64,000 bases of DNA. Origin: Thalassovita aquimarina (lineage in GTDB: Bacteria > Pseudomonadota > Alphaproteobacteria > Rhodobacterales > Rhodobacteraceae). The notes under the pieces are model-generated. The model was not told the DNA's origin. It saw only the letters and a program-made list of their open reading frames with translations, and did not search any database. This document shows, in pieces, positions 9,934 to 30,927 of this stretch. Both the position numbers and the translations under genes were made by a program. The DNA lies in assembly GCF_018219815.1 (NCBI RefSeq), contig NZ_JADMKU010000008.1, positions 1 through 64,000 of the forward strand. Direction: 5' to 3'. Numbering within the stretch: position 1 is the first letter of the stretch; every line of letters begins with the position of its first letter.

Positions 9934-9998
9934 TTTATGTTCATGCGAACAATCCGGTCAAGGAAAACCTTCCCAACGCTTCCGGTGGTTTACGGATG

Positions 9999-10631: not shown

Positions 10632-10670
10632 AACAATCCAGTTCTGAATATTGATGTCACGCCCGATAAT

Positions 10671-10686
10671 ATGAACAATGAATCAC
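10671..10686. promoter_or_regulatory. Degraded copy of the TetR-type palindrome upstream of tetR
   Basis: ATGAACAATGAATCAC matches 12 of 16 bases of the perfect palindrome at 9918-9933. It lies 40 bases upstream of the tetR start and touches the end of the MmgE/PrpD gene, consistent with autoregulation. The match alone is weak; position is the main support. Confidence 0.35.
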
Positions 10687-10687
10687 A

Positions 10688-12058: not shown

Positions 12059-12062
12059 GACA

Positions 12063-12779: not shown

Positions 12780-12790
12780 TGTTCTTATCC

Positions 12791-13297: not shown

Positions 13298-13338
13298 CGT
13301 TAGTTCCTCCCTGTTTTTTTATCTCCTGACGGTCTGCC

Positions 13339-13370
13339 GCTGCGCCCGCGACCAAGTCATCGGGCGCAGC
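13339..13370 (-). other. Intercistronic stem-loop between acyl-CoA ligase and osmC genes
   Basis: GCTGCGCCCG (13339-13348) pairs perfectly with CGGGCGCAGC (13361-13370) around a 12-base loop, with a further flanking repeat of CTGACGGT and ACCGTCGTCAG. No T run follows on the transcribed strand, so an mRNA stability or processing element is more likely than a terminator. Confidence 0.5.
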
Positions 13371-13384
13371 AACGTGTACCGTCG

Positions 13385-16164: not shown

Positions 16165-16601
16165 CGACGTTTCCTCTCCTCTTTTTTGGGAATCCCAAAA
16201 TCTCCTTGAAGGCCACACTACCACGCGGGGCCGCAGGGCGCAACAATTATGAATAATGGTTCATCATTCATATATTGAGAAAGCGGGCGCCTGGCGGCAG
16301 CGATTTCGGCGACGGACAGGAAAACAAAGCGCCATCGGCGACGCTGATTCGAATGGAAGATGCAATCGGACGGCAAGCCCAGCGATCAGGCAGCAAGCCC
16401 CCTGCCCTGTCCCGTCATGAACAGGCCCTTGCGACCGGGCCACGTGGAACAAACCGGTACGAGGCAAAGGGAAAGTCCGACGAGTCGCGTGAACCGAAAC
16501 GGATCGCACCGGGCTGTTCGGGATGGATGATCAGACGTCGGCTGTGGTGGCTCGTTCAGCCTGCCGACGCGCATTCCCCGAACTGAGACAGCCCGAGGCC
16601 A
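16165..16601. other. 437-bp noncoding stretch with the thiolase promoter
   Basis: It holds the promoter region of the leftward thiolase operon (A/T-rich 16240-16280 with the palindrome) and the 3' end region of the leftward LysR gene. Reading frames of about 80-100 codons exist but lack a ribosome site and have no protein-like pattern. Nothing else recognised. Confidence 0.6.
16249..16264. promoter_or_regulatory. Second TetR-type operator, upstream of the thiolase operon
   Basis: ATGAATAATGGTTCAT matches 14 of 16 bases of the perfect palindrome at 9918-9933. It precedes the first gene of the thiolase-ligase-OsmC-SDR-MmgE operon, linking that operon to the E1/E2/liv operon under one regulator. 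Confidence 0.6.
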
Positions 16602-17504
16602 TCAACCCGGGCGACTGCCGTCATCAGGCAAACGCAGAAAAGGATCGGAGCGCGCAGTTTCAATCACGAAGTCAAAAAATGCACGAATGCGCGCAGTTCG
16701 ATGCATGTCTTTGTGACAAACGATCCAGAGTTCGCCAGCGACTTCTGGAATCGGGGCTTCGACGCACCGCAGACCCGGCCAGCTTTCCCCGAGAATGCAG
16801 GGGAGCAATGCCGTGCTCCTGCTGGCCTGCGCAATCGCCGCATTGGTCACGAGGCTGTTGCTGCGCCAGAAAACTTCCGAATGCTTCGAAGTCGCACGGC
16901 CAAGCAGCTTTTCCTGAATGCTGATTGGCCCCGAAGAATACCCGATGATTTCTTCCAGTTCCCGGTCACTTTCCCTCCCCTCAGCCGCGCCTTGAGGGGA
17001 AGCGCTGCAATACCGTCCCCAATGCAACTCGGCGACTTTCCGGCCAACCAAGTTCACGTCGGTCGGACGAACGGGACGCAATGCGATATCGGCCGTCTGA
17101 TCCTCCAGGCTGAAAATACTGTTCCCGCTGAGGATCTCCATGCTGAGCTGGGGATGCCGCGTCCTGAAATCGGGGATGTGACGCGCCAGGAAATAGTTCG
17201 CGATGACCTCGCTTGCGGTAACCCGCAGCGTGCCGGTCAGTTGCTGATCTCTTCCGCTGATTGCCCGCTCACCTCTTTGCACCTCGGTCTCGATACTCTC
17301 GGCCACGCGCACAAGCTCGATCCCGATTTCCGTCGGCACATAGTCCTGCCTGGCCCTGGTAAAAAGCCGCTGCGCGCGCTCCTCCTCGATTTTCTCCAAG
17401 CGCCGGAAAACCGTCGAAACGGATACGCCCAGTTCGCTGGCGGCACCGGGAAGACCGCGGCTTCGGGCAATCGACAGCAACAGGCGATAGTCATCCCAGT
17501 CCAT
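16602..17504 (-). CDS. LysR family transcriptional regulator
   Basis: A 300-residue LTTR. The N-terminal winged helix (residues 1-60) reads MDWDDYRLLLSIARSRG, ELGVSVSTVFRRLEKIEEE; the effector domain follows from about 90. I chose ATG at 17504, which gives the canonical start; the frame extends 21 codons upstream. It is divergent to the flavoprotein gene at 17622 with a 117-bp gap, the classic LysR arrangement, so that gene is its likely target. The MDWDD start and short linker recall regulators of the GcvA/TfaR-like groups, but no ligand can be given. Confidence 0.9.
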   Translation of the reverse strand: MDWDDYRLLLSIARSRGLPGAASELGVSVSTVFRRLEKIEEERAQRLFTRARQDYVPTEIGIELVRVAESIETEVQRGERAISGRDQQLTGTLRVTASEVIANYFLARHIPDFRTRHPQLSMEILSGNSIFSLEDQTADIALRPVRPTDVNLVGRKVAELHWGRYCSASPQGAAEGRESDRELEEIIGYSSGPISIQEKLLGRATSKHSEVFWRSNSLVTNAAIAQASRSTALLPCILGESWPGLRCVEAPIPEVAGELWIVCHKDMHRTARIRAFFDFVIETARSDPFLRLPDDGSRPG

Positions 17505-17621
17505 GCAACAACTTCCATTTATGCAAATTATTACTTCAAAATAGAAACTTTTCTTGCCCTTTCGCAAGTCCTAGTTACCGCCCGTCGATGAAGAAATCGC
17601 AACGGAATAAAGGAAACCCAC

Positions 17622-18767
17622 ATGGGCAATATCTCGATCATCGGAGGCGGCTTCGCCGGAGTATGGGCCGCACTGAGCGCCGCCACCGAGCTTGACACGC
17701 ATGGCGTTCAAGATGTTGATATCCGGCTTTTCAGCCAGGACGACTATCTGACGATCCGGCCGAGGCTGTACGAAGCGCCCACCGACGACATGACGGTTCC
17801 GCTGGCGCCCCTGCTGTCGGAAATCGGTGTCGGCTTCACGAAAACAAAGGTGTCGGCCATCGGCGACACCGCGGTGGAAACCGAAAATGGCCAATCTGCA
17901 TATGATCGCCTGATCCTGGCCACGGGAAGCTCCCTGCGTCAGATCGATGGTCTTTCAAACGCCCCGGGTGTCTATTCGGTCGACACCTACAGCGATGCCG
18001 AGAAGCTGGAGTCTCATCTTCAGTCCCTGGAAGAAGGCGCCACGCTGGTTGTGGTCGGCGCGAGCTTTTCCGGCATCGAATTGGCCACCGAACTTCGTTC
18101 CAGAACGGGCGACGACAAACGTATTGTCCTGCTGGAACGCGCGGATGTCGCCGGCGGGGAACTGGGCGAAAGCCTGACGGATGTTCTGCAGGAGGCCTTT
18201 ATCGAGGCGAATATCGAAGTCCTGACAGGCAATTCCATTCGCGAAATCAACGACGGCACCCTCGTGCTGGACGACGGTCAGACCATTGCAAGCTCGACTG
18301 TCATCCTGACGACAGGCCTCGAAGCCAGCCCGCTGACCAAGACCATTTCGGGCGGCAGCACCGGTTCGGACGGCCGCCTGGCGGTTGATGCGCATCTCAG
18401 GATTACGGGCCGCGATGGCCTCTACGCAGCCGGAGACGTCGGCAAAGCCATGGCCTCGGTCGATCATGCGACCTTGATGTCCTGTCAGCACGCGATGCCC
18501 ATGGGGATGGTTGCAGGCAGGAATGCCGTGCGCGACATTCTTGGCAAAGACCTTTTGCCCTACAGCCAGGAATTCTACGCAACCTGCCTCAGCCTTGGCC
18601 CGTGGGGGGCCGTTTTCACCACCGGTTGGGATCGTCAAATCGCCAAGACCCGGGATGAGGGCGCAGCAATGAAGCAGGAAATCAACCAGGCTTGGATCTA
18701 CCCGCCGAAGCCGGAAATCGGGAAAGAAGCCATCCTCGACGCCATGCGCAGCGCCTTCGAGGGCTGA
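17622..18767 (+). CDS. FAD-dependent pyridine nucleotide oxidoreductase (Ndh/AIF-like)
   Basis: A 381-residue two-dinucleotide-binding flavoprotein. FAD site ISIIGGGFAGVWAALSA at the N-terminus, NAD(P) site TLVVVGASFSGIELATELRS near residue 145, and the FAD-binding GLYAAGDVGKAM near 268. These match type II NADH dehydrogenase / ferredoxin-NAD reductase relatives. No C-terminal membrane anchor is obvious. It stands alone, divergent from the LysR regulator. It may oxidise NAD(P)H with a quinone or small dye-like acceptor; a real assignment is not possible. Confidence 0.85.
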   Translation: MGNISIIGGGFAGVWAALSAATELDTHGVQDVDIRLFSQDDYLTIRPRLYEAPTDDMTVPLAPLLSEIGVGFTKTKVSAIGDTAVETENGQSAYDRLILATGSSLRQIDGLSNAPGVYSVDTYSDAEKLESHLQSLEEGATLVVVGASFSGIELATELRSRTGDDKRIVLLERADVAGGELGESLTDVLQEAFIEANIEVLTGNSIREINDGTLVLDDGQTIASSTVILTTGLEASPLTKTISGGSTGSDGRLAVDAHLRITGRDGLYAAGDVGKAMASVDHATLMSCQHAMPMGMVAGRNAVRDILGKDLLPYSQEFYATCLSLGPWGAVFTTGWDRQIAKTRDEGAAMKQEINQAWIYPPKPEIGKEAILDAMRSAFEG

Positions 18768-19009
18768 CCTGCACCGGCCTGTTCCCCTGAAACGACTTCT
18801 CTTTGTCATCTGCCTCATCAAGACCGGGCAGATCCAGTGCAAAGCTGGGGGAGTTTCAGGGGCTCGGTTCACGAACGGCTAGCGGCCGAGTTTCGCGTCG
18901 GCCTGGGCGAAAGTCCGGGCCGAGTTCAACCGGCTTCACGAGAACGGTTTCGCCGTCAGACAGAGACACAAACCATTGGAACGAAGGACTAACTTTCTTC
19001 CGTTAGCGT

Positions 19010-19198
19010 TCAGCGGAGCAGTTCAGGAGGCGCAGGCATGACGATGCTGGCCTCACCCAGAGAAGCGCCAAGAGCGGCCCATCCAATGACGCCGATCGCC
19101 GCCATAGCCGCGAGCAACACTGCCCCATTCAAAAGGATGCGTTGAACCGACTTTGCGATCCGGTTTTGTTCAAGTTTTTCAGTGTAGGCCAAATACAT
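19010..19198 (-). CDS. Small membrane protein, uncharacterised
   Basis: A 62-residue frame beginning MYLAYTEKLEQNRIAKSVQ with one hydrophobic segment (about residues 22-48, rich in Ala/Ile/Leu/Gly) and a short tail. AGAGGGG precedes the ATG. The same frame stays open up to a TTG at 19477 overlapping the aspA stop, which would give 155 residues, but the upstream part is Arg-rich and looks non-coding. It is the last possible member of the orotate/aspartate operon. The 240 bp between it and the flavoprotein stop at 18767 show nothing recognisable. Confidence 0.4.
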   Translation of the reverse strand: MYLAYTEKLEQNRIAKSVQRILLNGAVLLAAMAAIGVIGWAALGASLGEASIVMPAPPELLR

Positions 19199-19473
19199 TT
19201 TCTCGCCCCTCTGCTCGTCCTGAAATTGTATAGAGGCCAAATGCGGCATTTTCGGGGCCAAGGTCACCGCGGCGAAGACGGCCACCAGATTGCCCGCAAT
19301 CGTCCGGATGCGGATGCCAACGACAAGGATGCGGGCCAGCGACGTTTTTTCGGTGCCGCCATCGACCTGATCGGCATCACCCGGAGCCTGCCTCGCGGCC
19401 AGACGCCGTGGTGACGCAACACGTCTTGGTCGAAGGGATTTCACATATCCGGGCGCGTTCTTCGCATTTCCTT

Positions 19474-20859
19474 TCAAAGATGTTCGAAACTTTTCTCGAT
19501 GGTGTCCTGAAACGCGGCGCTGGTCATCAGACCTGCTTCCACGACAACCGACTTGATCGAACGGTGGCTGGCCTGGGCTTCCTTGGCGACCTTTGCACTG
19601 GTTTCATAGCCGAGTTCCGGCACCAGGGCGGTGGCCAGTACCAGGCTGCTGGCGAACAGGTCCTCACAACGTTCCCGATCGGCCTGGATGCCATCCACGC
19701 AGCGCACCCGCAGCGTCTTCATCGCGTTTTCGAGCATCCGCATGGACTCCAGAAGGTTATAGGCGATCACCGGCTCCATCGCGTTGAGCTGAAGCTGCCC
19801 GGCTTCGGCGGCCATGGTGATGGTCACGTCGTTGCCGATGACCTGATAGGCAACCTGGCTGACGACCTCCGGGATCACGGGATTCACCTTGCCCGGCATG
19901 ATCGAGGACCCGGCCTGAACCGCCGGCAGGACGATTTCACCGATACCGGCCCGGGGGCCCGAGTTGAGCAGGCGCAAATCGTTGCAGATCTTGGAGATCT
20001 TGATCGCCACGCGGCGCAGCAGTCCCGAGAACGACACCAGTGCCCCCATATTGGAAGACGCATCGACCAGATCCCGGGCACATCTGAGGTCTTGGCCGGA
20101 AATCGCGCTCAGATGCCGCACGGCGACTTCTGCATAACCGGCCGGTGTGTTGATGCCGGTTCCGATCGCGGTGCCCCCGAGATTTACAACACGCAGCACC
20201 TTGGAAAGATCCTCCAGCCGGGTGATCTCTTCGGTGAGCGCCGCCGCGAAGGATGCAAACTCGCGCCCGACCGTCATTGGAACCGCGTCCTGCAACTGCG
20301 TTCTGCCCACCTTGCGGATGTCCGAAAATGCCTCCGCCTTGGCGGAAAACGCCGCCAGCAGAAGGCGCTGTTCCTCGATCAGCCGATGGCACTTGAACAG
20401 GACCGCAAGACGGATCGCCGTCGGGTAGACGTCATTGGTGGACTGCGAGCGGTTCACATGATCGTTGGGATGGATGTAGTCATATCCCCCGAGCGGGCGG
20501 CCTGCCTTTTCAGCGGCCAGGTTTGCGATGACCTCGTTGGCGTTCATGTTCGTCGAGGTTCCGGCACCGCCCTGGATCATGTCGACGACAAAGGCGTCAT
20601 GCTTTTTCCCGGCGATCAGATCCCGGCAGGCGCTGCCAATCCATTTCGCGCGTTCAGCGTCCAGGGCGCCCAATTCCGTATTGGCCCGTGCCGCCGCAAG
20701 TTTCACCATGGCCAGCGCGCGGACAAGATCCGGAAAATGACTGAGGCTAACCCCGGTGATCGGGAAATTTTCCACCGCACGCACCGTGTGAATGCCGTAG
20801 TAAGCTGTTTCCGGCACCTCTTTCGTGCCGATCGAATCTTGTTCCAATCGGGTATTCAT
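19474..20859 (-). CDS. aspA: Aspartate ammonia-lyase
   Basis: A 461-residue member of the fumarase/aspartase superfamily, converting L-aspartate to fumarate plus ammonia. It shows GGAGTSTNMNANEVIAN, NDHVNRSQSTNDVYPTA and the signature GSSIMPGKVNPVIPE with the catalytic Ser loop. Aspartases and class II fumarases are close; the TSTNMNANEV and HPNDHVN blocks and the operon context (dihydroorotase, carbamoylase making aspartate) favour aspartase. It would deliver the carbon of orotate to the TCA cycle as fumarate. Confidence 0.9.
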   Translation of the reverse strand: MNTRLEQDSIGTKEVPETAYYGIHTVRAVENFPITGVSLSHFPDLVRALAMVKLAAARANTELGALDAERAKWIGSACRDLIAGKKHDAFVVDMIQGGAGTSTNMNANEVIANLAAEKAGRPLGGYDYIHPNDHVNRSQSTNDVYPTAIRLAVLFKCHRLIEEQRLLLAAFSAKAEAFSDIRKVGRTQLQDAVPMTVGREFASFAAALTEEITRLEDLSKVLRVVNLGGTAIGTGINTPAGYAEVAVRHLSAISGQDLRCARDLVDASSNMGALVSFSGLLRRVAIKISKICNDLRLLNSGPRAGIGEIVLPAVQAGSSIMPGKVNPVIPEVVSQVAYQVIGNDVTITMAAEAGQLQLNAMEPVIAYNLLESMRMLENAMKTLRVRCVDGIQADRERCEDLFASSLVLATALVPELGYETSAKVAKEAQASHRSIKSVVVEAGLMTSAAFQDTIEKSFEHL

Positions 20860-20885
20860 AGTGCTTTCTCTTTGTTTCGGCCGTG

Positions 20886-21206
20886 TCAGGCGTTGCGGCT
20901 AGCCAGGTCCGATGCGATCCTGTTCACGGCAGCAAGAACCTCTGCCGGTTTCCCGCCGCCGAAGACATCTTCCAACTGCGCGGCGGTGTCCGAAAACTGC
21001 TCGAACGCGGCAATGGTATGCGCCACCGTGATCGCCATTCGTTCGTTGCTTTCGATGAAATCCTCCGCCAGCGCGGCCAGCAGGAAATACGCCACGGCCT
21101 GATCGGGTGATGCGGCTGCCTTTTCACGGGCCACACCCGCGCATTTGCGGAACGCGTGAATGCCCTTGCCGTTTTCGGCGATGATATCTGCGAGTTCGAT
21201 GAACAT
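20886..21206 (-). CDS. Uncharacterised helical protein in the orotate operon
   Basis: A 106-residue acidic, probably all-helical soluble protein (MFIELADIIAENGKGIHAFR start, Ala-rich helices). No signal peptide, no membrane segment; a few Cys/His but no metal motif. I do not recognise the family. It lies between pyrE and aspA with gaps of 13 and 26 bases and a GGAGAA ribosome site, so it is a genuine operon member. It could be a subunit, chaperone or regulator of a neighbouring enzyme. Confidence 0.7.
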   Translation of the reverse strand: MFIELADIIAENGKGIHAFRKCAGVAREKAAASPDQAVAYFLLAALAEDFIESNERMAITVAHTIAAFEQFSDTAAQLEDVFGGGKPAEVLAAVNRIASDLASRNA

Positions 21207-21219
21207 GGTAGTTCTCCTG

Positions 21220-21915
21220 TCAAAGGGATATTGATGTGGCCCCGCCATGGTCACCCGACCATGCGAGGGGTTCGTTCAGAAACCGTTCAACTTCTGCCAG
21301 CGCTTCCGTGTCAAAATAGTTGGTCTCTTTGCTGACCTGCAGAACATCCCGCCAGGTGGCGAGCGCATGCAGGGTCAGATTGTGGTCTTTAAGTTTGGCG
21401 CGGGTTTCGGGGAAGATATCGTAGTAGAAGATCATGATCGTATGATCGACCACCGCGCCTGCACGGCGCAGGGCCTCGCAGAACTTGATCTTGCTGCCCC
21501 CGTCCGTCGTCAGGTCTTCGACCAGCAGAACGCGCTGGCCCGCCGCCACATCGCCTTCGATTTGCGCGTCGCGGGCAAAGCCTTTGGCTTTCTTGCGCAC
21601 ATATTGCATCGGTAGGCCAAGGTCGGCGGCAAGCCAGGCCGCGAACGGTATGCCCGCGGTTTCTCCACCCGCCACGGCATCGAATTGTTCGAACCCGATC
21701 TCGTTCAGCAGGAGCGCGCCGGCAAAACCCATCATCGCCTCGCGCACCCTCGGGTAGGAAATAACCTTCCGGCAATCTATGTAGACCGGGCTTGCCAGAC
21801 CGGAGGTGAACGTGAACGGATGATCGGCCCGGAAATGGACTGCGTTGATCTCCAGCAGCATCTTCGCCGTCATCCTGGCGATGACATCGCGGCTGGGAAA
21901 GTCATGTAGTTTCAT
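21220..21915 (-). CDS. pyrE: Orotate phosphoribosyltransferase
   Basis: A 231-residue enzyme joining orotate to PRPP to make OMP. The PRPP-binding motif reads [15 protein letters not shown] near residue 127, preceded by [20 protein letters not shown] (orotate-side region) and [14 protein letters not shown]. Length and motifs are normal. In this operon it offers a salvage route for imported orotate to UMP, parallel to degradation. The gap to pyrC is 24 bases. Confidence 0.92.
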
Positions 21916-21939
21916 GGTGAATGTCCTTCTGACCGGCCG

Positions 21940-22995
21940 TCAGGCCGCCGTGCCTTCGATTGCATCCCAATAGACCGGAAACCCGGGATCGCAGACTGTG
22001 ACGTCTTCCTGTCCCGCTCTGATCCGTTCCGGCCACACCTGCGGCTCTGCCCGCTTGCGGAGATGCAGTTTGCCTGAATTCCGTGCCAATCCGTAGAACG
22101 CGGCGCCGTTCAGCGAGGTGAAGGCTTCGATCCGGTCCAGCTTCGCAACCTGTTCGAACAGCGTGGCGAGAATGGGCATGGTGTTCACCGAAGTGAACAT
22201 CCCGGCACAGCCGCAGGCGGTTTCCTTCGCCGTCGTCGGGTGCGGCGCGGAATCGGTTCCCAGAAAGAACCGCGCATCCCCCGAGGTCGCCGCCGCCAGC
22301 AGCGCCTGGCGGTGCTCTTCTCGCTTCAGGACCGGCAGACAGTAGTAATGCGGCCGTATCCCGCCGGCCAATATGTCATTCCGGTTCAGGCTCAGATGGT
22401 GCGTGGTCAGCGTAGCCGCGAGCCCGGCATCCGCGGATTTCACATAGTCCACCCCGTTGCGCGTCGTAACGTGCTCCAGCACCACGCGCAGCTCCGGCAA
22501 CTCCTTGCGCAGCGGGTCCAGGACATGGTCGATGAAGACCGCCTCGCGGTCGAAGATGTCGATCTCCGGGTCCGTCACCTCGCCATGCACCAGCAGCGAG
22601 ATTCCGGCGTCCGCCATCCGTTCCAGCACCGGCATGACGTTCCGGATGTCGCGGACACCGCTGTCCGAATTCGTGGTCGCGTCTGCCGGATAGAGCTTCG
22701 CAGCCTTGACGATCCCGTCCCGGAAACCGGCCTTTAGCTCGGCGGGATCGGTGGTTTCGGTCAGATAGAGCGTCATGAGAGGTTCGAAAGCATCCGTTTC
22801 GGGGACTGCCGCCAGGATCCGGCCACGATAGGCCCGCGCGGCTGCCGCGGTGGTAACCGGCGGCACAAGGTTCGGCATGATGATCGCGCGGGCAAAATCG
22901 CGGCAGGAACAGGGCGTCACGGCCCCCAGCATTTCCCCGTCGCGCAGATGCAGGTGCATATCGTCGGGACGGGTGATGACCAGATCTTCAGTCAT
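21940..22995 (-). CDS. pyrC: Dihydroorotase (class II)
   Basis: A 351-residue amidohydrolase interconverting dihydroorotate and N-carbamoyl-L-aspartate. Metal ligands begin at [12 protein letters not shown]; further ligand histidines are in [14 protein letters not shown] and VLEHVTTR, and the Asp in [10 protein letters not shown]. This is the E. coli PyrC type (about 348 residues). In the operon it would run in the hydrolytic direction, opening the ring. The start overlaps the M20 hydrolase stop by 4 bases. Confidence 0.93.
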
Positions 22996-24275
22996 GCGCG
23001 TGCCCCCCCTCGCAGATATTCGTAGATGATTGACGTTCCGGCCATGAAGTCGTCGATTTCCATCGCTTCATCGGGATTGTGCGAACCGTTCTGGTTGCGC
23101 ACGAACACCATGGCACTGGGAACGCCCGCATTTGCAAAGACCGCAGCGTCATGCCCGCCGCCCGACGCCATGACCATCGGCGCCAGCCCGATACGTTCCA
23201 TTGCCGCGCTCAGCCCGTCGACGACAGACTGGCTCATCCGGGCCGGCGCAGTCGCATTGAGGCTGCCGGTCGCGAACGTCACTTTCCGCTCGTGGGAAAT
23301 CTGCGCCATCTCATCGGCCAGCAGCTGACGCATTCCCCGCAGCGTTTCCGGGTCCTGGCTGCGAATATCGAGGCTGAAGTCAACCTGATCCGGGATCCGG
23401 GACATTGCGTTTGTCTCGCTGTCGGTGTGGACGACGCCCGAGGTCACGACCAGATCGCCTCCTTTCTGCACGATCGACAACCAGGCTTCGTCGAGCCGGG
23501 TCAGAAGGTCCGACATCGCCAGAACCGGATCTTTGCGGAACGCGCGCGGCACCGCACCCGAATGCCCGGCTTCGCCGGTGCAGCGGATCGCTTTGTATCG
23601 GAAGTTTCCGCGGATGCCCGACACTATGGCGGCGGGACGATCCTTGCCGATCAGAAGCGGCCCCTGCTCGATGTGCAATTCGATATACTCCAGGATATCC
23701 CCCGCCTTCATCAGCGGGACGCCGGAGCGGATCGGCGCCATCTCGATGCCAGCGCCTTCCATATGCGTGTCCAGAGAGCGCCCGTCGCCCTTGTGCGGCG
23801 CAGCCAGCTCTTCCCGGCTCAACACCCCCATCAACGCCTTGGACGCAATGTAACACGGGCCGAACCAGGCGCTTTCCTCGCCACGCATCGCGATGACCTT
23901 CAGCGAACGGGCAAACCGTTCTCCCCTCGCCTTGGCGCGCAGCAGGCACATGACCCCGGCAATGACGCCGGCCATCCCGTCATAGTTGCCGCCCATGGGC
24001 ACGCTGTCCACATGGCTGCCGACCAACACGAACTGTTCGGCGCCCGCATCTTCGGGCAGCGACATGACAAGGTTCTGCCCGGCGTCGTAAGCCGTCGAAA
24101 GCCCGGCGTGCACCGCCAGTTCTTCAAGAAACTTCAGCACAGCCGTTTCCGTTTCGGAATAGGCGGGGCGGCTGACGCCGGCCCTGTCGCGGCTCATCCT
24201 GTAGACCGCGCTGAAAATCTCTGCCGCCTGCTGGTGCTCTGCCGCCGCGGCATGCCCCACCGCACACTGTGTCAT
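22992..24275 (-). CDS. M20-family N-carbamoyl-L-amino-acid hydrolase / allantoate-amidohydrolase-type enzyme
   Basis: A 427-residue binuclear metal hydrolase. Metal-binding blocks: [20 protein letters not shown] near residue 82 (His, Asp), [18 protein letters not shown] near 130 (Glu), [12 protein letters not shown] near 193 (His) and [19 protein letters not shown] near the C-terminus. The family removes a carbamoyl group as CO2 and ammonia. Between pyrD and pyrC, its natural substrate would be N-carbamoyl-L-aspartate, giving L-aspartate for the aspartase downstream, i.e. ureidosuccinase (EC 3.5.1.7). Family is seen; substrate is inferred from context. Both neighbours overlap it by 4 bases. 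Confidence 0.88.
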
Positions 24276-25216
24276 GGCGCGGCCTCCATGAAGACGACGG
24301 AATCCGCCGCATCATCATCGCGAACGGTACCGATCAGTTCGGAAACATCGGTGATGTTCTGGGAGGCGAGGAAATGTCTCAGTTCCTCCACCAGCGTCAC
24401 CATCGTGGTCGGCTTGATGAAGGTTGCGGTGCCGACCTGCACGGCGGTGGCGCCTGCGATCAGGTACTCGGCGACATCCTCGACGGTTGAAATGCCGCCG
24501 CAGCCGATCACTGGAATGTCCACGGCCTTGGCGCATTGATAGGCCATGCGCAGGGCAATCGGCTTCAGCGACGGACCGGAAAGCCCGCCCATCAGGTTGC
24601 CCAGTTTCGGCTTTCTTGAATGGATATCGATGGCCATCGACAGCAGCGTGTTGGACACCACCAGCGCATTCGCGCCCGCGTCCTGGGCGGCCTCTGCGAC
24701 TTCGGTCGTCTCGCCGGTATTGGGCGTCAGCTTGGCCCAGAGCGGCAGGTCCGAGGCCGCCCGCAGCCGGGTCATCACCGCATGGGTGGAAGATGGCCGC
24801 ATGGCAAAGGCCTTACCGTCCTCTTCGATGTTCGGACAGGAGATATTCACCTCGATAGCATCCACGCCGGGCACCGAAATCTCTTCGCAGATCCGCGCGA
24901 AGTCATCCGCACTATGGGCCGAGATGCTGACGACAAACGGCGCGTCGTAGCGCTGATAGAACGGGATCACATTCTCGATGAAGTCGTCGATGCCTTTCGA
25001 CGGGATCCCGATCGAGTTCAGCATCGATCCGCGCACTTCACAGACCCGCGGCGTCGGATTGCCGCCGCGCTTTTCGCGGGTGATTGTCTTGGTGACATGG
25101 GCGCCGATCGCACCGATATCGATCACGTCCACCAGGTCCTCGGAGAAGGTGCCAGAAGCCGGCATGATCGGGTTTGCAAGGGTCAGGGACCCGATTTTTG
25201 TAGTCAGATTTACCAT
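24272..25216 (-). CDS. pyrD: Dihydroorotate dehydrogenase, class 1B catalytic subunit type
   Basis: A 314-residue FMN TIM-barrel protein. The catalytic loop reads EVNISCPNIEEDGKAF with the class 1 Cys base; LPLWAKLTPNTGET supplies the FMN/orotate Lys, and PVIGCGGISTVEDVAEYL the phosphate site. There is no N-terminal membrane helix as in class 2 enzymes. Its partner is the 2Fe-2S/FAD subunit encoded just upstream (7-base overlap), so electrons come from or go to NAD(H). In a catabolic setting the enzyme would reduce orotate with NADH. Confidence 0.92.
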   Translation of the reverse strand: MVNLTTKIGSLTLANPIMPASGTFSEDLVDVIDIGAIGAHVTKTITREKRGGNPTPRVCEVRGSMLNSIGIPSKGIDDFIENVIPFYQRYDAPFVVSISAHSADDFARICEEISVPGVDAIEVNISCPNIEEDGKAFAMRPSSTHAVMTRLRAASDLPLWAKLTPNTGETTEVAEAAQDAGANALVVSNTLLSMAIDIHSRKPKLGNLMGGLSGPSLKPIALRMAYQCAKAVDIPVIGCGGISTVEDVAEYLIAGATAVQVGTATFIKPTTMVTLVEELRHFLASQNITDVSELIGTVRDDDAADSVVFMEAAP

Positions 25217-26052
25217 TCCATCGCCTCCTGCATGTCAAAGACGGGGCCCTCGCGGCACACACGTTCGTGGATGATCTTGTCGTTGCGGCGGAAAGAGCGC
25301 ACGCAGCACTGGCACATGCCGACGCCGCAGGCCATCTGCTGCTCCAGTGCGATCTCGCCCGGGATTCCGTGTTTGGCGCCGAGGCCCTGCAGCAGCTTCA
25401 GCATCCGGTTCGATCCGCAGGTATAAAGCGCATCCACCGCGCCCGCGGCGATCCTGCCCTCGACGATGGCCCGGATGTTGTACATGTCCGAAGTGCCCTC
25501 GGCATCCGTAACGGTGATCACCTCGGCGCCCATTTCGCGGAACAAGTCCGTCGACATCAGCACGTCGGGGCTGCGGGCCGAACAGATCGCGGTGAGCTTG
25601 CGGCCCAGACGGCGGGCTTCCTGAGCCAGAGGAGCCAGGGTGGCAAGGCCGACGCCGCGCGCGACCAGAAGCAGGTTGTTCCAGTCGTCCTGGATCGAGT
25701 AGCCTTTGCCAAGCGGGCCTAACACGTTGAAACCGTCGCCCTCTTTCAGGTCTGCCATCGCTCGGGTGCCTTCACCGGCCACCTTGTAGAGAAAGTGCAG
25801 CTCTCCCTTTTCCGGGTAATAGCCGTAGATGCTCATCGGGCGGCGCAGGTAGGGCTGGTGCCCGCCGGACACCGGGCAAAGAAGGTGGAAGAATTGGCCG
25901 GGCTTGCAATTCAGGATCTTTTGCGGCGCGTCCAGAACCAGGTGGCGGTATTCGCCGTTCACTTCCACGTTGCTTTTGACACGGGTTTCAGTTTCGAAGA
26001 CTTCCCCGTTCGCCGAAGCGAGCGCTTCGGCGTTGAGCTGTCTGTCTGTCAT
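25210..26052 (-). CDS. pyrK: Dihydroorotate dehydrogenase electron-transfer subunit (PyrK-like)
   Basis: A 280-residue ferredoxin-NADP-reductase-fold protein: FAD-binding RRPMSIYGY near residue 87, NAD-binding LLLVARGVGLATLAPLAQEA near 137, and a C-terminal 2Fe-2S site with Cys in QQMACGVGMCQCCVRS plus a later Cys in HERVCREGPVF. This is the PyrK arrangement that lets PyrD class 1B use NAD(H). A 40-residue N-terminal extension precedes the FAD domain. It follows the TRAP dctM gene by 13 bases. Confidence 0.9.
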   Translation of the reverse strand: MTDRQLNAEALASANGEVFETETRVKSNVEVNGEYRHLVLDAPQKILNCKPGQFFHLLCPVSGGHQPYLRRPMSIYGYYPEKGELHFLYKVAGEGTRAMADLKEGDGFNVLGPLGKGYSIQDDWNNLLLVARGVGLATLAPLAQEARRLGRKLTAICSARSPDVLMSTDLFREMGAEVITVTDAEGTSDMYNIRAIVEGRIAAGAVDALYTCGSNRMLKLLQGLGAKHGIPGEIALEQQMACGVGMCQCCVRSFRRNDKIIHERVCREGPVFDMQEAMEW

Positions 26053-26065
26053 TGGTTTCCCTTTC

Positions 26066-27346
26066 TTAACCGAAGATCATTTTCGGGATGAAAAGCGAGA
26101 TTTCAGGCACATAGGTCACGATCAGCAGGACGATGATGTTGACTGCAACGAACGGCCAGACCCCCTTGATGATGTCGAGGGCAGGTTTTCCGAGCGTCGA
26201 CGACGCCACGAAGATGTCGAGCCCGAAGGGCGGTGTGATCATGCCGAGGCTGATGTTCAGCGTTACGATCATGCCGAAGTGGACCGGATCGACGCCCAAC
26301 GCCACGGCAACCGGGTAGAGCGGCGGCACCAGGATCAGAAGGGCGGAGTTCGGGTCGATGAGCATCCCGGCGATCAGGAAGCAGACGTTGACCACCAGCA
26401 GGAAGGTGATCGGGCCCGCGTTGATGGCCGTCAGGAAATCGGTGATCTGGGCGGGCACCTGCGCGAGTGTCACGAAGAAGGAAATCAATCCGCCCATCGC
26501 CAGAAGCACGAAGATGACCGAGGTCGAGATCGCACTTTGTTCGGTGATGCGGAACAGGTCCTTGAAGCCGAAGTTCCGGTAGACAACCATTTCCACGAAG
26601 ATGGCGTAGATGACGCTCACCGCGGCGGCTTCGGTCGGCGTGATGTATCCCGAGTAGATGCCGCCCAGAATGATCCCCGGCATGCCCAGGGCCCAGCCGG
26701 CGTCCTTGACCGCCTTCAGCCGATCTTTCCAGGACGAACGCGCGCCCGGTTCGATGCCATTACGACGGGCTTCGAGCATCACCATCAGCGCGAAGGCCAA
26801 GCCGAGGAAAAGGCCAACGGCCAGCCCGCCCGCGAACAGCCGTGCGATCGAGGTGCCGGTCATCCAGCCGTAGATGATGAAGGTGATCGACGGCGGGATC
26901 AGCAACGCGGTTTCGGCGCTCGCTACCAGCAGGCCGAGGCTGAATTTCTGGCTAAAGCCGGTCTTGCGCATCTCCGGATAGACCATCTTGCCCATCGCCG
27001 CGACCGTGGCCGGCGCCGAACCGGACACCGAACCGAAGGCCATCGACCCGCCGATCACGGTATGGCCCATGCCGCCCCGCGTGTGACCGATGAGCGACCG
27101 CACCAGACCGGTCAGGTTGCGAGCAATCTGCCCCCCGCCCATCAGGTGCGCCGCAAAAATGAAGAAAGGGATGGCAAGCAGCGTCGAATGGTCGATGCCG
27201 CCAAAGATCTTCTGCACGACCGCCGGATCAGGCAGGCGGCCATAGAAGGCTTCCTTGATTGCGATTGCCGGGATCCCCAGCACCAGGAACATCTCGAACC
27301 CGAGCACCAGAAGCGCGACGGCAAGAAGAAGGATCAGGATCAGCAT
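26066..27346 (-). CDS. dctM: TRAP transporter large permease subunit (DctM)
   Basis: A 426-residue membrane protein of normal DctM length with about 12 hydrophobic segments; FFIFAAHLMGGGQIARNLTG and SGSAPATVAAMGKMVYPEM are family-typical. It forms the Na+-coupled channel with DctQ. Its start shares one base with the dctQ stop (TGATG). Co-transcription with pyrK/pyrD/M20/pyrC suggests orotate or dihydroorotate as cargo. Confidence 0.93.
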   Translation of the reverse strand: MLILILLLAVALLVLGFEMFLVLGIPAIAIKEAFYGRLPDPAVVQKIFGGIDHSTLLAIPFFIFAAHLMGGGQIARNLTGLVRSLIGHTRGGMGHTVIGGSMAFGSVSGSAPATVAAMGKMVYPEMRKTGFSQKFSLGLLVASAETALLIPPSITFIIYGWMTGTSIARLFAGGLAVGLFLGLAFALMVMLEARRNGIEPGARSSWKDRLKAVKDAGWALGMPGIILGGIYSGYITPTEAAAVSVIYAIFVEMVVYRNFGFKDLFRITEQSAISTSVIFVLLAMGGLISFFVTLAQVPAQITDFLTAINAGPITFLLVVNVCFLIAGMLIDPNSALLILVPPLYPVAVALGVDPVHFGMIVTLNISLGMITPPFGLDIFVASSTLGKPALDIIKGVWPFVAVNIIVLLIVTYVPEISLFIPKMIFG

Positions 27347-27849
27347 CAGTACGCCTCCGCGTCTTCGGCTTCGGGCTTTCCAAACCGGTCGATGACACCA
27401 AAGAAGCTCAGCGCGAAGCGCAGTCCCAGCAGGCAGAACCCGATCACCGGGGCGAGATAGACATACCCCATCGGCACATCCAGGGTCGGGCTCCGCTGCC
27501 CGGTTCTGAGGACGAATTCGAACAGCGTATAGCCCAGCCAGACGAGGTACATGGAAAAGGCAAATCCGGCAGCGTCGATCAGTTTCAGCAACGGGATGCG
27601 CAGACCCTCCGGAAGGCGGTCACGCAGCGTATCGATCCCCATGTGACGGCCGCGTTCGAGCGCAAGGCCGAGTCCCAAAAAGACCAGCAGGGTATTGAGC
27701 AACCGAACCGCTTCCTCGATCCAGGCGAACTGGCTTGCAAAGGATCCGCCGATTTCGCGAGCGACCACGTTGAAGAAAAAGAGCGCGGCCATGGTCAGGA
27801 AAATGACGACAAGGCTGGCCCGCTCGGCGATTCTGAGTATCTGAAGCAT
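27346..27849 (-). CDS. dctQ: TRAP transporter small permease subunit (DctQ)
   Basis: A 167-residue protein with four membrane helices. I chose ATG at 27849 (MLQILRIAERASL), preceded by GGAGGACG; an upstream extension of the frame lacks a ribosome site. ASQFAWIEEAVRLLNTLLVF matches the conserved W-E-E region of DctQ. It lies 105 bases after dctP with a stem-loop in between. Confidence 0.92.
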   Translation of the reverse strand: MLQILRIAERASLVVIFLTMAALFFFNVVAREIGGSFASQFAWIEEAVRLLNTLLVFLGLGLALERGRHMGIDTLRDRLPEGLRIPLLKLIDAAGFAFSMYLVWLGYTLFEFVLRTGQRSPTLDVPMGYVYLAPVIGFCLLGLRFALSFFGVIDRFGKPEAEDAEAY

Positions 27850-27898
27850 GGAAACACGTCCTCCCTTCGGCACAATCGCCGCTGCGGCTAGCGCCAAC

Positions 27899-27931
27899 CC
27901 GGCGCGGGACGCTTCATCTGCCCCGCGCCGG
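27899..27931 (-). other. Intercistronic stem-loop between dctP and dctQ
   Basis: CCGGCGCGGG (27899-27908) pairs exactly with CCCGCGCCGG (27922-27931). No T run follows in the transcribed direction. Such hairpins after a binding-protein gene commonly stabilise its mRNA relative to the membrane subunits. Confidence 0.55.
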
Positions 27932-27953
27932 TGGTTATCTTAGTTCAGGCGGC

Positions 27954-28976
27954 TCAATTGGCGGCTTGCGCCTCGTAGACTTCGATCAGCGCCGCACCTT
28001 CGTCGCCAGCCTGGTCGATATAGGCTGCCCGCGCAGGTTCATACATCTTGGTGCGCAGTTCCTGGCGTTCTGCTTCCGAGGCCACCCGCACGTTGATATC
28101 GCCACCCGAGATCTCCTCCAGCGCGCTGGCCACGGCCGCGGATTTGTGTGCCGTCAGTTCTGGCACCACTTCCGAGAAGGCATCGGTGATGATGGTGCGG
28201 TATTCTTCCGGCAGGCTTTCCCAGAACATCGGGTTAAACAGCACTACGTCTTCCATCGCCCCATGCTCGGAGACGACCAGGTAATCCTGCACCTCGTGGA
28301 ACTTCATGCGCAGGATCGTGTCGAGCGGGTTTTCCTGACCGTCCACAACGCCGGTTTGCAGCGAGGTGTAAAGCTCGCCGAACGGCAGCGCGATGGCGGA
28401 TGCACCCAGCGCGTTAAACTGCTCGATCAGGATCTTGCTGTCCATTACCCGGAACTTCTGGCCGGCAAATGCCGAGATGTCGTCCAGTGCCTGATTCGAG
28501 GTGAAGTTCTTGCGCCCGTTGGGCCACAGAGCCACACCAACAACCCCGCGGCTGGAAAAGGACTCCAACAGCGCCTTGCCGAAGTCGCCGTCGCGCAGGG
28601 CTTGCGCCTTGGCTTCGTCGGTTGGCAGCAGATAGGGGATATCCAGGACCGAAACGGCCGGATTGAAGCCGCCCAGGAAGGCGGCGGGCGAAACGGTCGC
28701 TTCCAGCGCGCCAAGCTGCACACCTTCGGTCATTTGCCGCTGGTTGCCAAGCTGGCCCTGCGGAAAGATCTGGAACTCAACTGCACCACCGGTTCGCTCC
28801 GAGACCAGAGCGGCAACTTTTTCCAGGTGGATGTGGCGGCTCTGCTGGGTCGATTCCAAGTGACCGATCCGGGCAATATAGTCCTGCGCCATTGCCGGTA
28901 CTGCAGTCAGGGCAAACACCCCGGCGGACAGCGCGATCATGCCCCGCTTCAGAAGAGATTTCTTGGTTTCAGACAT
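27954..28976 (-). CDS. dctP: TRAP transporter periplasmic solute receptor (DctP)
   Basis: A 340-residue receptor with a signal peptide (KR then hydrophobic core, cleavage near AMA-QDY) and the DctP fold. The ligand-anchoring Arg region reads GQKFRVMDSKILIEQFNALG, followed by PFGELYTSLQTGVVDGQENP, the strongest family motif. It is the first gene of the operon, divergent from the XRE regulator. The cargo is inferred from the neighbours to be orotate or a related pyrimidine acid. The conserved Arg fits a carboxylate. Confidence 0.93.
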   Translation of the reverse strand: MSETKKSLLKRGMIALSAGVFALTAVPAMAQDYIARIGHLESTQQSRHIHLEKVAALVSERTGGAVEFQIFPQGQLGNQRQMTEGVQLGALEATVSPAAFLGGFNPAVSVLDIPYLLPTDEAKAQALRDGDFGKALLESFSSRGVVGVALWPNGRKNFTSNQALDDISAFAGQKFRVMDSKILIEQFNALGASAIALPFGELYTSLQTGVVDGQENPLDTILRMKFHEVQDYLVVSEHGAMEDVVLFNPMFWESLPEEYRTIITDAFSEVVPELTAHKSAAVASALEEISGGDINVRVASEAERQELRTKMYEPARAAYIDQAGDEGAALIEVYEAQAAN

Positions 28977-29136
28977 GGCTTTCTCCCATTATTGATGCCG
29001 GGATATTCTGGCGACCGGGTATCACAGTCAAGATAATTCTCACTTTTGAGACGATTATTCAAATTATACAATATTTGCGATTCCATCCATGCCCTGATAT
29101 TGTGCTTTGCAATCAATTGGTGAGGATTCTGCAGGC
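28977..29136. promoter_or_regulatory. Divergent promoter region of dctP operon and XRE regulator
   Basis: This 160-bp A/T-rich gap separates two divergent starts. It contains an imperfect dyad, CAAATTATACAATATTTG (29059-29076), and a shorter one, TTTGCAATCAATTGG (29106-29120). One of these is the probable binding site of the adjacent helix-turn-helix regulator. Confidence 0.5.
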
Positions 29137-30018
29137 ATGTCCACGCAATACGACGCGATACTCCAGGTCGGAGAGCGGCTTCGCTCCTATCGGCTGGGCA
29201 AGGGGCTGACCCCGGAACAGGTCGCCAAGGAGACGGGAATCTCGCGGGCGGCGATCTATCGGTACGAATCCGGGCAGCCGATCAGGGTCGATGCGCTCGG
29301 CAAGATCGCTGACCTTCTTGACGTCTCCCTTACATCGCTGTTTGGCGTCGGGTCCGAATATATCACCTCCGCCCTGACGTTCTTTGAGCGCATGAAACAG
29401 ATCGAGGACACGGCGGAACAGATCAGCGTTCTGTTCGGCCCGGTGTCCTATCTGCTGACCACCCAGCAATTTGACGCCATTCTCGGCCAGGTGCTGAACG
29501 AAAGCGTTCCCGAAGGCGCCACCGACCGCGAAAACCTGGAAACCGAGGTCCGGAAAATCGTCGAAACGCTGCGCGAACGCAAAGCCACTTTTCAGAAGCG
29601 CCGCCCAAATATCGTCAGCCTGGTCTCCAGTGCAGAACTGGAACAGTTCGCCCTGTCCGGCTTTGTCGGAAAACAGGGCATCACCGGCCCCGAGCTTGAC
29701 GAGCGGAAGGCAATCGCCAGAGGGGAAATCGAGAACATCATAAGACTGCTGGAGGAGCAGCCGATTGGCGTGCAGATCGGCGTCGTCGAAGATTCCACCC
29801 CCGGGTCGAGTTTCCAGATCTTTCGGAACGGCAACAAGGCCCAGGTCGCGGTAAGCCCCTTCCGCTTGGGTTCCTTTCCCAATATCCGCATCGGGGTTGC
29901 GACGATCACCTCTGCACAGGAATCCATTCAGCTTCACCAGCAAGTGACCGAACAGCTTTGGAAGAACAGCCTTAAAGGCGTGGAAGCCGTAAACCGGCTG
30001 AAGAAAATTCTGCAATAA
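29137..30018 (+). CDS. XRE-family transcriptional regulator of the orotate/TRAP operon
   Basis: A 293-residue protein. The N-terminal XRE helix-turn-helix spans about residues 10-65 (GERLRSYRLGKGLTPEQVA, TGISRAAIYRYESGQPIRV). The rest, about 220 residues, is an unassigned sensor domain with a C-terminal part rich in beta strands (IGVQIGVVEDSTPGSSFQIF). Start ATG at 29137 (MSTQYDAIL) follows GAGG at a slightly long distance. Divergent placement makes it the likely controller of dctPQM-pyrKD-amidase-pyrCE-aspA, with orotate or dihydroorotate as candidate effector (inference). Confidence 0.85.
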   Translation: MSTQYDAILQVGERLRSYRLGKGLTPEQVAKETGISRAAIYRYESGQPIRVDALGKIADLLDVSLTSLFGVGSEYITSALTFFERMKQIEDTAEQISVLFGPVSYLLTTQQFDAILGQVLNESVPEGATDRENLETEVRKIVETLRERKATFQKRRPNIVSLVSSAELEQFALSGFVGKQGITGPELDERKAIARGEIENIIRLLEEQPIGVQIGVVEDSTPGSSFQIFRNGNKAQVAVSPFRLGSFPNIRIGVATITSAQESIQLHQQVTEQLWKNSLKGVEAVNRLKKILQ

Positions 30019-30132
30019 TCGCAAATCGGGTGCGGCCCCGTTGCCGCCACCAAAGCCGGTTCCGCATTTTTCCAGGCAGGCGTAACAGGCGACAATGCCG
30101 GGCCCCTTGATCCGACGCGTGTTCGCCGTCTC

Positions 30133-30927
30133 TCACCCCTGTTTGAGGATCGCGAGAATCTCGGCATGCAGTGCCGCCGTCGCCGCGGCAACGACACGCC
30201 CGTCGGACCCGAGACCGAGCGGGCGCCCCTGCCAGTCGGTGATCACACCGCCGGCACCTTCGACCACGGGAACAAGCGCCAGAAAATCATATGGCTGAAG
30301 GTTCATTTCGATCACCGCATCCACATGGCCGGAGGCGAGCAATCCGTAGCTGTAGCAATCCCCGCCGAAGCGGCGCAGAGCGGCCCCGGCCGTCACTTTT
30401 TCGAAAGCCGCCAATCCCTGCGCGTCGAAGCTGTCGGGTGAGGTTGTGTAGACACTGGCATCGGACAGGCGGCGGCAGCCGCTGCTCCGGCAGGCCTTGT
30501 CCCCGAACTGGGTCGCTTCGCCCGCACGCCCCACCCAGCATTCCGCGGTGGGCGGGATCGAAATGATCCCGACCGTCGGCACTCCCTCTTCCAAATACGC
30601 GATAAGCGTGCCGAATGTCGGCATGCCCGTAACGAAGCTCTTGGTGCCGTCGATCGGGTCGAGAACCCAGACATGGGCGCTGTCGAGATTGGCGTTTCCG
30701 TGTTCTTCGCCAAAGATGCCGTGGCTGGGAAAGGCCTCGGCGATCCGCTGTCGCATCGCCGCCTCGACCGCCCTGTCCGCCTGGGTTACCGGCGACAGGT
30801 CAGCCTTCCTCTCCACATCAAGCGGGGTACGGAAATAGGCCAGCGATATCGGCGCCGCCAAATCGGCAAGCCCACATGCGAACGCGGTCAACGTCTCGGT
30901 ATCCGGCGTATCCTTCACTCTCTGCAT
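30133..30927 (-). CDS. Inositol monophosphatase family phosphatase (HisN-like)
   Basis: A 264-residue Mg2+-dependent phosphatase. Metal sites: GEEHGN near residue 70, WVLDPIDGTKSFVTGMPTFG near 86-105 and the C-terminal LQPYDFLALVPVVEGAGG. I chose ATG at 30927 (MQRVKDTPD), preceded by GAGGAAAA. Members hydrolyse inositol-1-phosphate, histidinol phosphate or other monoesters; this clade is often annotated as histidinol-phosphatase. It is divergent from an importer of the Afu/Phn type, which raises the alternative that it dephosphorylates an imported phosphate ester. Confidence 0.88.
   Translation of the reverse strand: MQRVKDTPDTETLTAFACGLADLAAPISLAYFRTPLDVERKADLSPVTQADRAVEAAMRQRIAEAFPSHGIFGEEHGNANLDSAHVWVLDPIDGTKSFVTGMPTFGTLIAYLEEGVPTVGIISIPPTAECWVGRAGEATQFGDKACRSSGCRRLSDASVYTTSPDSFDAQGLAAFEKVTAGAALRRFGGDCYSYGLLASGHVDAVIEMNLQPYDFLALVPVVEGAGGVITDWQGRPLGLGSDGRVVAAATAALHAEILAILKQG

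Follow-up and report, generated by a model that had tools for sequence, protein, structure and literature searches.

Organization and distribution of the gene cluster

Ten open reading frames follow one another on the minus strand of the window, i.e., the whole 64,000-nucleotide stretch of Thalassovita aquimarina DNA that was analyzed, from position 28976 to 19474 and in the order dctP, dctQ, dctM, pyrK, pyrD, an M20-family gene (M20), pyrC, pyrE, an unnamed gene and aspA. The initial annotation had proposed such a single-strand cluster, and all of its reading frames were found at that place and in that order, with names backed by the family scans; the extent it gave holds for the ten genes, but leaves out a divergent regulator gene (29137..30018) and an operator candidate (29038..29051). 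Neighboring genes mostly overlap or are separated by short gaps: 56 bp between dctP and dctQ (whose TTG start is uncertain), an overlap of 1 bp between dctQ and dctM, 13 bp between dctM and pyrK, overlaps of 7, 4, and 4 bp at pyrK-pyrD, pyrD-M20, and M20-pyrC, 24 bp between pyrC and pyrE, 13 bp between pyrE and the unnamed gene (counted from the ATG of the latter at 21206) and 26 bp between this gene and aspA. The arrangement is far beyond chance, since dozens of genomes share this gene order. An Rfam scan of positions 18500-30500 gave no match, and no promoter or terminator is claimed because sites resembling them were rarer in the locus than in shuffled sequence.

Relatives of PyrK were found 253 times, and the best 80 were kept for locus counts, all of them alphaproteobacterial according to record titles and our knowledge of the genera. 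Among these best 80 loci, pyrK, pyrD and M20 were present in every one (M20 partial in two) and the TRAP transporter genes in 76, with dctQ and dctM each counted in 76. Other transporters also lie beside the same enzymes: an MFS transporter in two Klebsiella, one Variovorax and one Pseudomonas plasmid, and an ABC transporter together with a nucleoside phosphorylase in three loci (L070, L097, L136). A form of the regulon that feeds on orotidine, through an ABC importer, a nucleoside phosphorylase and a phosphopentomutase, is a weaker lead. The two Klebsiella clusters have no annotated pyrE, and the first of them also lacks a tblastn match to pyrE; a near-match search of the Klebsiella cluster against E. 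coli genomes gave no match. On one Agrobacterium plasmid a gene annotated as pyrF adjoins pyrK, and the existence of plasmid copies suggests that the trait moves between bacteria. PyrK relatives do not all sit in a full operon. Nine further genomes of the class were considered and six places with a PyrK relative were inspected in five of them: two carry M20 and pyrE, three carry pyrK-pyrD without M20, pyrC or pyrE, and the sixth, on a 10.9-kb contig, has pyrE and pyrC without M20. Neither a DctP match nor the 106-aa protein encoded by the unnamed gene was found at any of the six.

Transporter and enzymes encoded by the cluster

The three components of the TRAP importer, all encoded on the minus strand, score above their Pfam cut-offs: DctP, the solute-binding protein (27954..28976; PF03480, 267 bits), DctQ, the small permease (27346..27897; PF04290, 98.9 bits), whose true start may be internal to the listed TTG, and DctM, the large permease (26066..27346; PF06808, 374 bits; TIGR00786, 391 bits). 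The best PDB match of DctP, both by sequence and by fold, is 4NN3 (Desal_2161 of Maridesulfovibrio salexigens), a TRAP binding protein known as a structure with its ligand, which is orotic acid according to a passage of a 2024 paper (PMC11668362). Identity to this close relative reaches 64% (203/316 residues), and the next PDB matches are near 30%. The predicted model of DctP was poor (mean pLDDT 68) and was used solely to rank PDB entries. In an alignment of sequences of our choice, including that of the window, N78 was kept in 14 of 15 rows and K156 in all 15; we take these two residues for the unusual Asn and Lys of the orotate-bound protein. Given the identity to this relative, DctP probably binds orotate and DctPQM is probably an orotate importer.

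The two following genes would encode a soluble, NAD(P)H-linked dihydroorotate dehydrogenase. PyrD (24272..25216, minus strand) belongs to class 1B (NF005574, 345 bits, cut-off 269; TIGR01037, 315 bits, cut-off 270), with 5ue9_A as its closest solved relative (E 1e-69), and is predicted to work as an orotate reductase. PyrK (25210..26052, minus strand; PF10418, 44 bits, cut-off 23.9), the FAD/[2Fe-2S] subunit that would oxidize NAD(P)H, is closest to Lactococcus lactis PyrK (1ep1_B, E 8e-25), and its Fe-S cysteines 242, 247, 250 and 266 are conserved in 98% or more of the covering rows (83 loci). It stays under all four NCBIfam equivalog cut-offs for PyrK (133.9/314, 124.5/270, 123.5/219, and 111.2/224), and its glycine-rich loop is altered, which counts against the reading of the locus as an orotate operon.

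The M20 product (22992..24275, minus strand) is an amidase/carbamoylase that we propose to be the N-carbamoyl-L-aspartate amidohydrolase, or ureidosuccinase (EC 3.5.1.7). Its score exceeds the cut-off of the hydantoinase/carbamoylase family (TIGR01879, 269 bits vs. 204), a family membership that is assumed for ureidosuccinase rather than known to define it. Because it reaches no equivalog cut-off among the 25 of 31 family matches listed, its substrate is one that we infer; no model for N-carbamoyl-L-aspartate hydrolysis occurs among those listed matches. The nearest solved relatives are an N-carbamoyl-L-amino acid hydrolase (3n5f) and an allantoate amidohydrolase (1z2l), and the motifs GSHxDS, GEES, LHIEQG and GSHNP, presumably those of the metal site, are mostly invariant over 83 loci. 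Ureidosuccinase has been known as an enzyme since the 1950s and, to our knowledge, has no assigned gene.

The cluster also holds second genome copies of pyrC, for a dimeric dihydroorotase (21940..22995, minus strand; TIGR00856, 416.5 bits, cut-off 293), and of pyrE, for an orotate phosphoribosyltransferase (21220..21915, minus strand; NF001729, 376 bits, cut-off 245). A search for a separate biosynthetic set found adjoining pyrE and pyrC genes on another contig (C11:72007-72678 and C11:72731-73762), a quinone-type pyrD (C15:17275-18141) and pyrB (C44:194001-194894), therefore the set in the window is extra, and the initial annotation's concern that its genes might be the only copies is removed. 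Operon and housekeeping copies share 65.6% identity for pyrC and 58% for pyrE. A recent duplication of the housekeeping gene as the source of the operon pyrC is ruled out by a starred clade (99/98) that joins it with 10 other operon copies; the tree's remaining 25 copies all fall outside this clade of 11. The operon copies of pyrC overall do not form one clade: the label needs four changes, three of them forced by starred branches, and a single origin was recovered in 0% of bootstrap trees. Among the branches listed for the pyrE tree, the window copy groups with those of L056, L057 and L125 (98/85). Within the best 80 loci, full-length pyrC was found in 36 and full-length pyrE in 62; pyrE is partial in three and absent downstream of pyrK in 15, two of which end early. 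The genes absent from loci are mostly those repeated by housekeeping enzymes, namely pyrC and pyrE.

The gene listed in the initial annotation as unknown (20886..21206, minus strand) is indeed present, and it proves to be a core member of the operon, found in 73 of the best 80 loci; three records (L133, L136, L202) show it as a C-terminal fusion to the carbamoylase. Its 106-aa product has no Pfam or NCBIfam family above cut-off; a Pfam match to MCR_alpha was rejected (22.1 bits vs. a cut-off of 25). The AlphaFold model is confident and all-helical (mean pLDDT 95, five helices), and its fold has no PDB match below E 1, the best being CheA P1 (E 1.2). The protein is not orotate-specific, since it occurs without the operon beside a dihydropyrimidinase-type gene in one genome (G721) and about 10 kb from the operon in another (G075). 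Another genus gave weak matches (27.6-29.9 bits) in three of its genomes, where no operon protein gave a tblastn match within about 1.5 kb.

The last gene, aspA (19474..20859, minus strand), encodes a lyase of the aspartase subfamily (NF008909, 696 bits, cut-off 510) that stays under the aspA equivalog cut-off (TIGR00839, 608 vs. 681). The aspartate-consuming step attributed to it earlier may apply in this lineage, but not as a general component of the operon: aspA follows the operon in two full and one partial case among the best 80 loci, as a rare, lineage-specific addition.

Regulator and operator candidate

Divergently from the operon, on the plus strand, lies the gene of an XRE-type (HTH_3) regulator (29137..30018; PF01381, 50.6 bits). 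A homolog was found somewhere in 77 of the best 80 loci, on any strand; of the 76 TRAP loci, 52 have it in divergent orientation no more than 700 bp from dctP. The region that separates the regulator gene from dctP contains a palindrome, TCTCACTTTTGAGA (29038..29051, unstranded), which follows the pattern TCTCA-N4-TGAGA and is the only exact site in the window and in the whole 4.33-Mb assembly. Exact sites were present in 39 of 53 intergenic regions and in none of 200 composition shuffles, and this recurrence makes the pattern a likely operator of the regulator, not universal among loci. No exact site was found in the stretches L081, L085, L106, L123, L133, L134, L135 and L137 (L135 has one site with one mismatch, inside the regulator gene), in L201 and L203, or in eight further stretches, six of them with pyrK; in L120 the exact site is located elsewhere than before dctP.

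Proposed function of the locus

Homology, synteny, gene loss and gene fusion together indicate a regulated operon for orotate utilization, in which import would be followed by breakdown to aspartate; we give this reading a probability of about 0.86. Orotate catabolism, as first suggested by the initial annotation, is well supported by the separate biosynthetic genes, by the 64% identity of DctP to the orotate-bound 4NN3 and by the conservation of pyrK-pyrD-M20 with the TRAP genes. Orotate would enter through DctPQM and be reduced to dihydroorotate by PyrD-PyrK working in reverse of the biosynthetic direction; the ring would be opened to N-carbamoyl-L-aspartate by PyrC, with the housekeeping enzyme standing in for operons that encode none, and the M20 carbamoylase would release aspartate, CO2 and ammonia. 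AspA may, in this lineage, take aspartate on to fumarate, and an aspartate or C4-acid product fits both aspA here and the gene resembling malic enzyme that the P. putida copy of the cluster carries. The extra PyrE would divert part of the imported orotate to OMP for UMP; this branch is probably important, as the carbamoylase would deplete carbamoyl-aspartate, an intermediate also needed in de novo synthesis. As long as neither orotate nor a product is bound, the XRE regulator probably keeps the operon repressed by way of TCTCA-N4-TGAGA. For the 106-aa protein the most likely role, at about even odds, is to bind the carbamoylase and to stabilize, channel or restrain it; more tentatively, and with somewhat less than an even chance, it may be an unnamed subunit or controller of ureidosuccinase that paces carbamoyl-aspartate breakdown to orotate supply and so spares pyrimidine synthesis.

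The operon could instead serve mainly salvage, with orotate imported for conversion to UMP through PyrE and the other enzymes removing an excess or recovering nitrogen. The frequency of full-length pyrE, its second copy in this genome and the pyrF-annotated gene beside pyrK on the Agrobacterium plasmid are in line with this, but salvage alone requires neither the reductase nor the carbamoylase, and these are precisely the genes that never fail among the best 80 loci, while pyrE is absent downstream of pyrK in 15 of them, partial in three, and missing from the annotation of both Klebsiella clusters; we consider it improbable. The same operon logic might also apply to a relative of orotate, such as dihydroorotate, a 5-substituted orotate or carbamoyl-aspartate, as TRAP binding proteins can take several related acids and the DctP pocket is poorly modeled. 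Nevertheless, DctP is close to an orotic-acid-bound protein with which it presumably shares the unusual Asn and Lys, and with dihydroorotate or carbamoyl-aspartate as the sole substrate PyrD-PyrK would have nothing to do, making this quite improbable. A second biosynthetic set with an NAD-linked dehydrogenase for low oxygen is hardly credible: the enzymes can run in both directions, and in Gram-positive bacteria class 1B dehydrogenases act in biosynthesis, but pyrB, carAB and pyrF are absent from the ten genes, a synthetic pathway has no use for an M20 carbamoylase or for an importer whose binding protein is of the orotate type, and the carbamoylase would destroy the precursor.

Orotate utilization is the preferred reading; it would link genes of marine and soil bacteria to a pathway long known to biochemistry. 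Ureidosuccinase gains a testable gene candidate, and a conserved small protein unnamed by Pfam and NCBIfam is brought out. It is also a warning for annotation, as such copies of pyrC and pyrD are probably degradative, yet carry biosynthesis terms in public records.

Comparison with known systems

The initial annotation knew of no operon of this kind with a TRAP transporter in an alphaproteobacterium, and no description of one was found among the open-licence papers listed (titles and abstract openings); as a claim of novelty this is nonetheless too strong, since the structure of a TRAP protein with bound orotate had been solved before and relatives of PyrK are frequent. The pathway chemistry and that protein are already known; what is new is the predicted gene candidate for ureidosuccinase and the candidate for its unnamed small partner.

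Clostridium (Zymobacterium) oroticum ferments orotate to aspartate with an NAD-linked dihydroorotate dehydrogenase, dihydroorotase and ureidosuccinase, the same chemistry as proposed for the operon, a likeness of pathway and not of compared genes. The present case differs in being found in a presumably aerobic alphaproteobacterium, as one operon with an importer, a regulator, an operator candidate, PyrE and a new small protein. The reductive pathway for uracil and thymine (PreAT, dihydropyrimidinase, beta-ureidopropionase) shares the logic of reducing the ring, opening it and removing the carbamoyl group, but employs the PreA reductase instead of PyrDK and another ring-opening enzyme; this genome has a preA/dihydropyrimidinase/M20 cluster on its contig C55, whose M20 protein is 26% identical to that of the operon. 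The lactococcal OroP, a single orotate transporter for salvage, has bacterial orotate uptake in common with the operon, whereas breakdown genes accompany only the latter.

Operon content and the separate biosynthetic genes

The ten genes lie on the minus strand from 28976 to 19474, in the order dctP-dctQ-dctM-pyrK-pyrD-M20-pyrC-pyrE-unknown-aspA given by the initial annotation, with overlaps or short gaps throughout save for 56 bp after dctP, and their names are backed by Pfam and NCBIfam family scans; PyrK and AspA passed the general models and missed the strict equivalog cut-offs. The loop ARGVGLATL of PyrK (25210-26052), where Lactococcus lactis PyrK has GGGIGVPPL, is near-invariant across 83 loci and, on its sequence, might change NADH/NADPH use.

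A second pyrC/pyrD/pyrE set was searched for elsewhere in the 67-contig T. aquimarina genome (4.33 Mb, stated completeness 100) and found: a second pyrE and a second pyrC adjoin each other on contig C11, while a pyrD on C15 passes the quinone-type cut-offs (TIGR01036 383 vs. 200) and a pyrB on C44 scores above its cut-off. The operon set is extra to pyrimidine biosynthesis. PyrC and PyrE of the window share 65.6% and 58% identity with their counterparts, and a comparison of 25 family genomes, T. aquimarina counted, gave a pair of full-length hits to the window PyrC in T. aquimarina alone, a single one in 22, two pieces of apparently one gene in G017 and none in G016. Contig C11 also encodes a second lyase, an aspartase or fumarase (NF008909 532 vs. 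cut-off 510). A cluster of PreA, dihydropyrimidinase and carbamoylase genes on C55 shows uracil-type breakdown to be separate from the orotate operon.

Together with this separate set, the likeness of DctP to an orotate-bound protein and the conservation of pyrK-pyrD-M20 support the proposal that the operon imports orotate and breaks it down to aspartate, in which we infer the direction of every reaction, the M20 substrate and the role of PyrE. The best solved relative of DctP, first also by fold, is the TRAP binding protein 4NN3, with 203 of 316 residues identical (64%). According to PMC11668362, the ligand in 4NN3 is orotic acid, and an asparagine and a lysine replace the acid and the arginine, respectively, of the other structures; N78 and K156 of the window DctP are taken to be their counterparts, and occur in 14 and 15, respectively, of 15 aligned sequences, those of the window and of 14 loci hand-picked out of 76. 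Orotic acid also appears among the TRAP ligands that the EFI project is described as having found (PMC5812351).

Conserved core, often-missing genes and regulation

A PyrK scan of genome contigs returned 253 relatives, the best 80 of which were kept, so that the counts are biased to close kin. All 80 loci carry pyrK, pyrD and M20 (M20 partial in two), 76 the TRAP genes and 77 a regulator homologue anywhere in the locus. Downstream of pyrK, pyrC is full in 36 loci, absent from 41 and partial in three, of which one is a remnant and two are truncated where the locus ends; pyrE is full in 62, partial in three and absent from 15. The most frequent absences are therefore of genes whose reactions are duplicated by the housekeeping PyrC and PyrE. 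Quinone-linked PyrD is not easily run in reverse, which may be why PyrDK is retained. No pyrC match occurs between M20 and pyrE in G006 (apparently the same genome as L057), and in G027 (apparently that of L061) pyrC has shrunk to a frame of 94 codons that matches its inner part over 66 columns, with a gene end recognisable by eye. Such remnants between M20 and pyrE (L061 7326-7511, L050 9189-9473) point to loss of the operon's own pyrC. Of the two remaining genes that the initial annotation had placed in the operon, the unknown one proved central, being detected by iterated profile in 73 of the 80 loci (two of the seven misses end before its place), and aspA peripheral (full in two, partial in one).

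The divergent XRE-type regulator gene (29137-30018), which faces away from the operon, belongs to the orotate system and would respond to a presumed ligand. Among the 76 TRAP loci, 52 have its homologue in divergent orientation no more than 700 bp from dctP, and in the 53 intergenic regions of these loci and the window, the other 24 loci being left out, the palindrome TCTCA-N4-TGAGA is exact in 39, with one mismatch in ten and two in four; these regions share descent and are not 53 independent events. None of 200 composition shuffles contained an exact copy. The candidate operator at 29038-29051 (chance expectation in the window 0.03) is the sole exact copy in the assembly, which fits a putative dedicated regulator with one target in T. 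aquimarina. In L109 (5012), L111 (4971) and L120 (4932) an additional regulator homologue, sharing 65% identity with that of the window, lies upstream near the operon.

The 106-aa protein

The product of the unknown gene (20886-21206) matches no named family in Pfam or NCBIfam, and its model, five helices at high confidence, has no good match among solved folds. It is fused to the carbamoylase end in L133 (559 aa) and on two closely related Agrobacterium plasmids (552 aa each), and is also detected in Klebsiella, Variovorax and Pseudomonas clusters; all five plasmid records that match it at E 0.01 are among those matching PyrK. It is rare (4 of 398 phylum and 4 of 385 class genomes) and also occurs outside the operon: some 10 kb from it in G075, and in G721 as a strong match adjoining a gene of dihydropyrimidinase type. 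That neighbourhood also holds a D-glutamate-cyclase-family gene and an ABC importer, and the 18 kb covered there gave no match to pyrK or M20. We therefore read it, at roughly even odds and with the fusion as main clue, as a helper of carbamoyl or ureide hydrolysis and not as an orotate-specific part. In L191 (8636-15863) a homologue overlaps a dihydropyrimidinase-type gene, and the genes beside them, of the D-glutamate-cyclase and ureidoglycolate-lyase families and for an ABC importer, may belong to a further cyclic-ureide pathway.

Transporter variants and distribution

The same enzymes stand beside an MFS gene on two Klebsiella, one Variovorax and one Pseudomonas putida plasmid. The Klebsiella clusters (L135 and L201, both 7302-18750) lie near lacY and lacZ, and one such record comes from milk, which is rich in orotate. 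On the P. putida plasmid (L203 6527-15857) the 453-aa protein annotated as dihydroorotase gave no blastp hit to the window PyrC; its gene is followed by the small-protein homologue and then by genes for a malic-enzyme-like protein and a chemotaxis receptor.

Four of the best 80 loci lack TRAP genes. An ABC permease is present in L133, whereas L123 yielded no identifiable transporter. The other two, L070 (13613-18928) and L097 (13599-17776), pair an ABC importer with a gene that resembles uridine phosphorylase but scores below the equivalog cut-off, as does the Agrobacterium plasmid L136 (4410-8499); in L070 the importer includes an NMT1-type binding protein, and a phosphopentomutase above cut-off is also present. 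In L070 and L097 the exact operator stands both in front of pyrK and where the ABC group begins, and L136 has two exact sites in the stretch that lies between the two groups and is shared by them. These variants suggest orotidine as a possible source; the second Agrobacterium plasmid, L202, has pyrF in place of the ABC/phosphorylase group.

Beyond close kin, PyrK is patchy. Strong matches (at least 57% identity) occur in 4 of 101 relatives, T. aquimarina counted, any match at E 0.001 or better in 24, and matches at E 1e-40 in 11 of 385 class genomes, including T. aquimarina and G075. Five of the other nine were inspected at six places: M20 and pyrE accompany the PyrK relative in L193 and L195, pyrE and pyrC without M20 in L198, and pyrK-pyrD are the sole enzyme genes, without M20, pyrC or pyrE, in L194, L196 and L197; none of the six has a DctP match or the small protein. 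A regulator homologue lies close to the pyrK-pyrD pair in L194 and L196. Plasmid records matching PyrK at E 1e-30 number 77, of which 53 are from Klebsiella.

Orotate breakdown was reportedly worked out in Clostridium oroticum, and we know of no gene assigned to EC 3.5.1.7, the ureidosuccinase activity proposed for M20. Many Alphaproteobacteria, and also plasmids of other bacteria, carry the system, and a structure had already linked one part of it to orotate, so that the surprise of finding it here is moderate.
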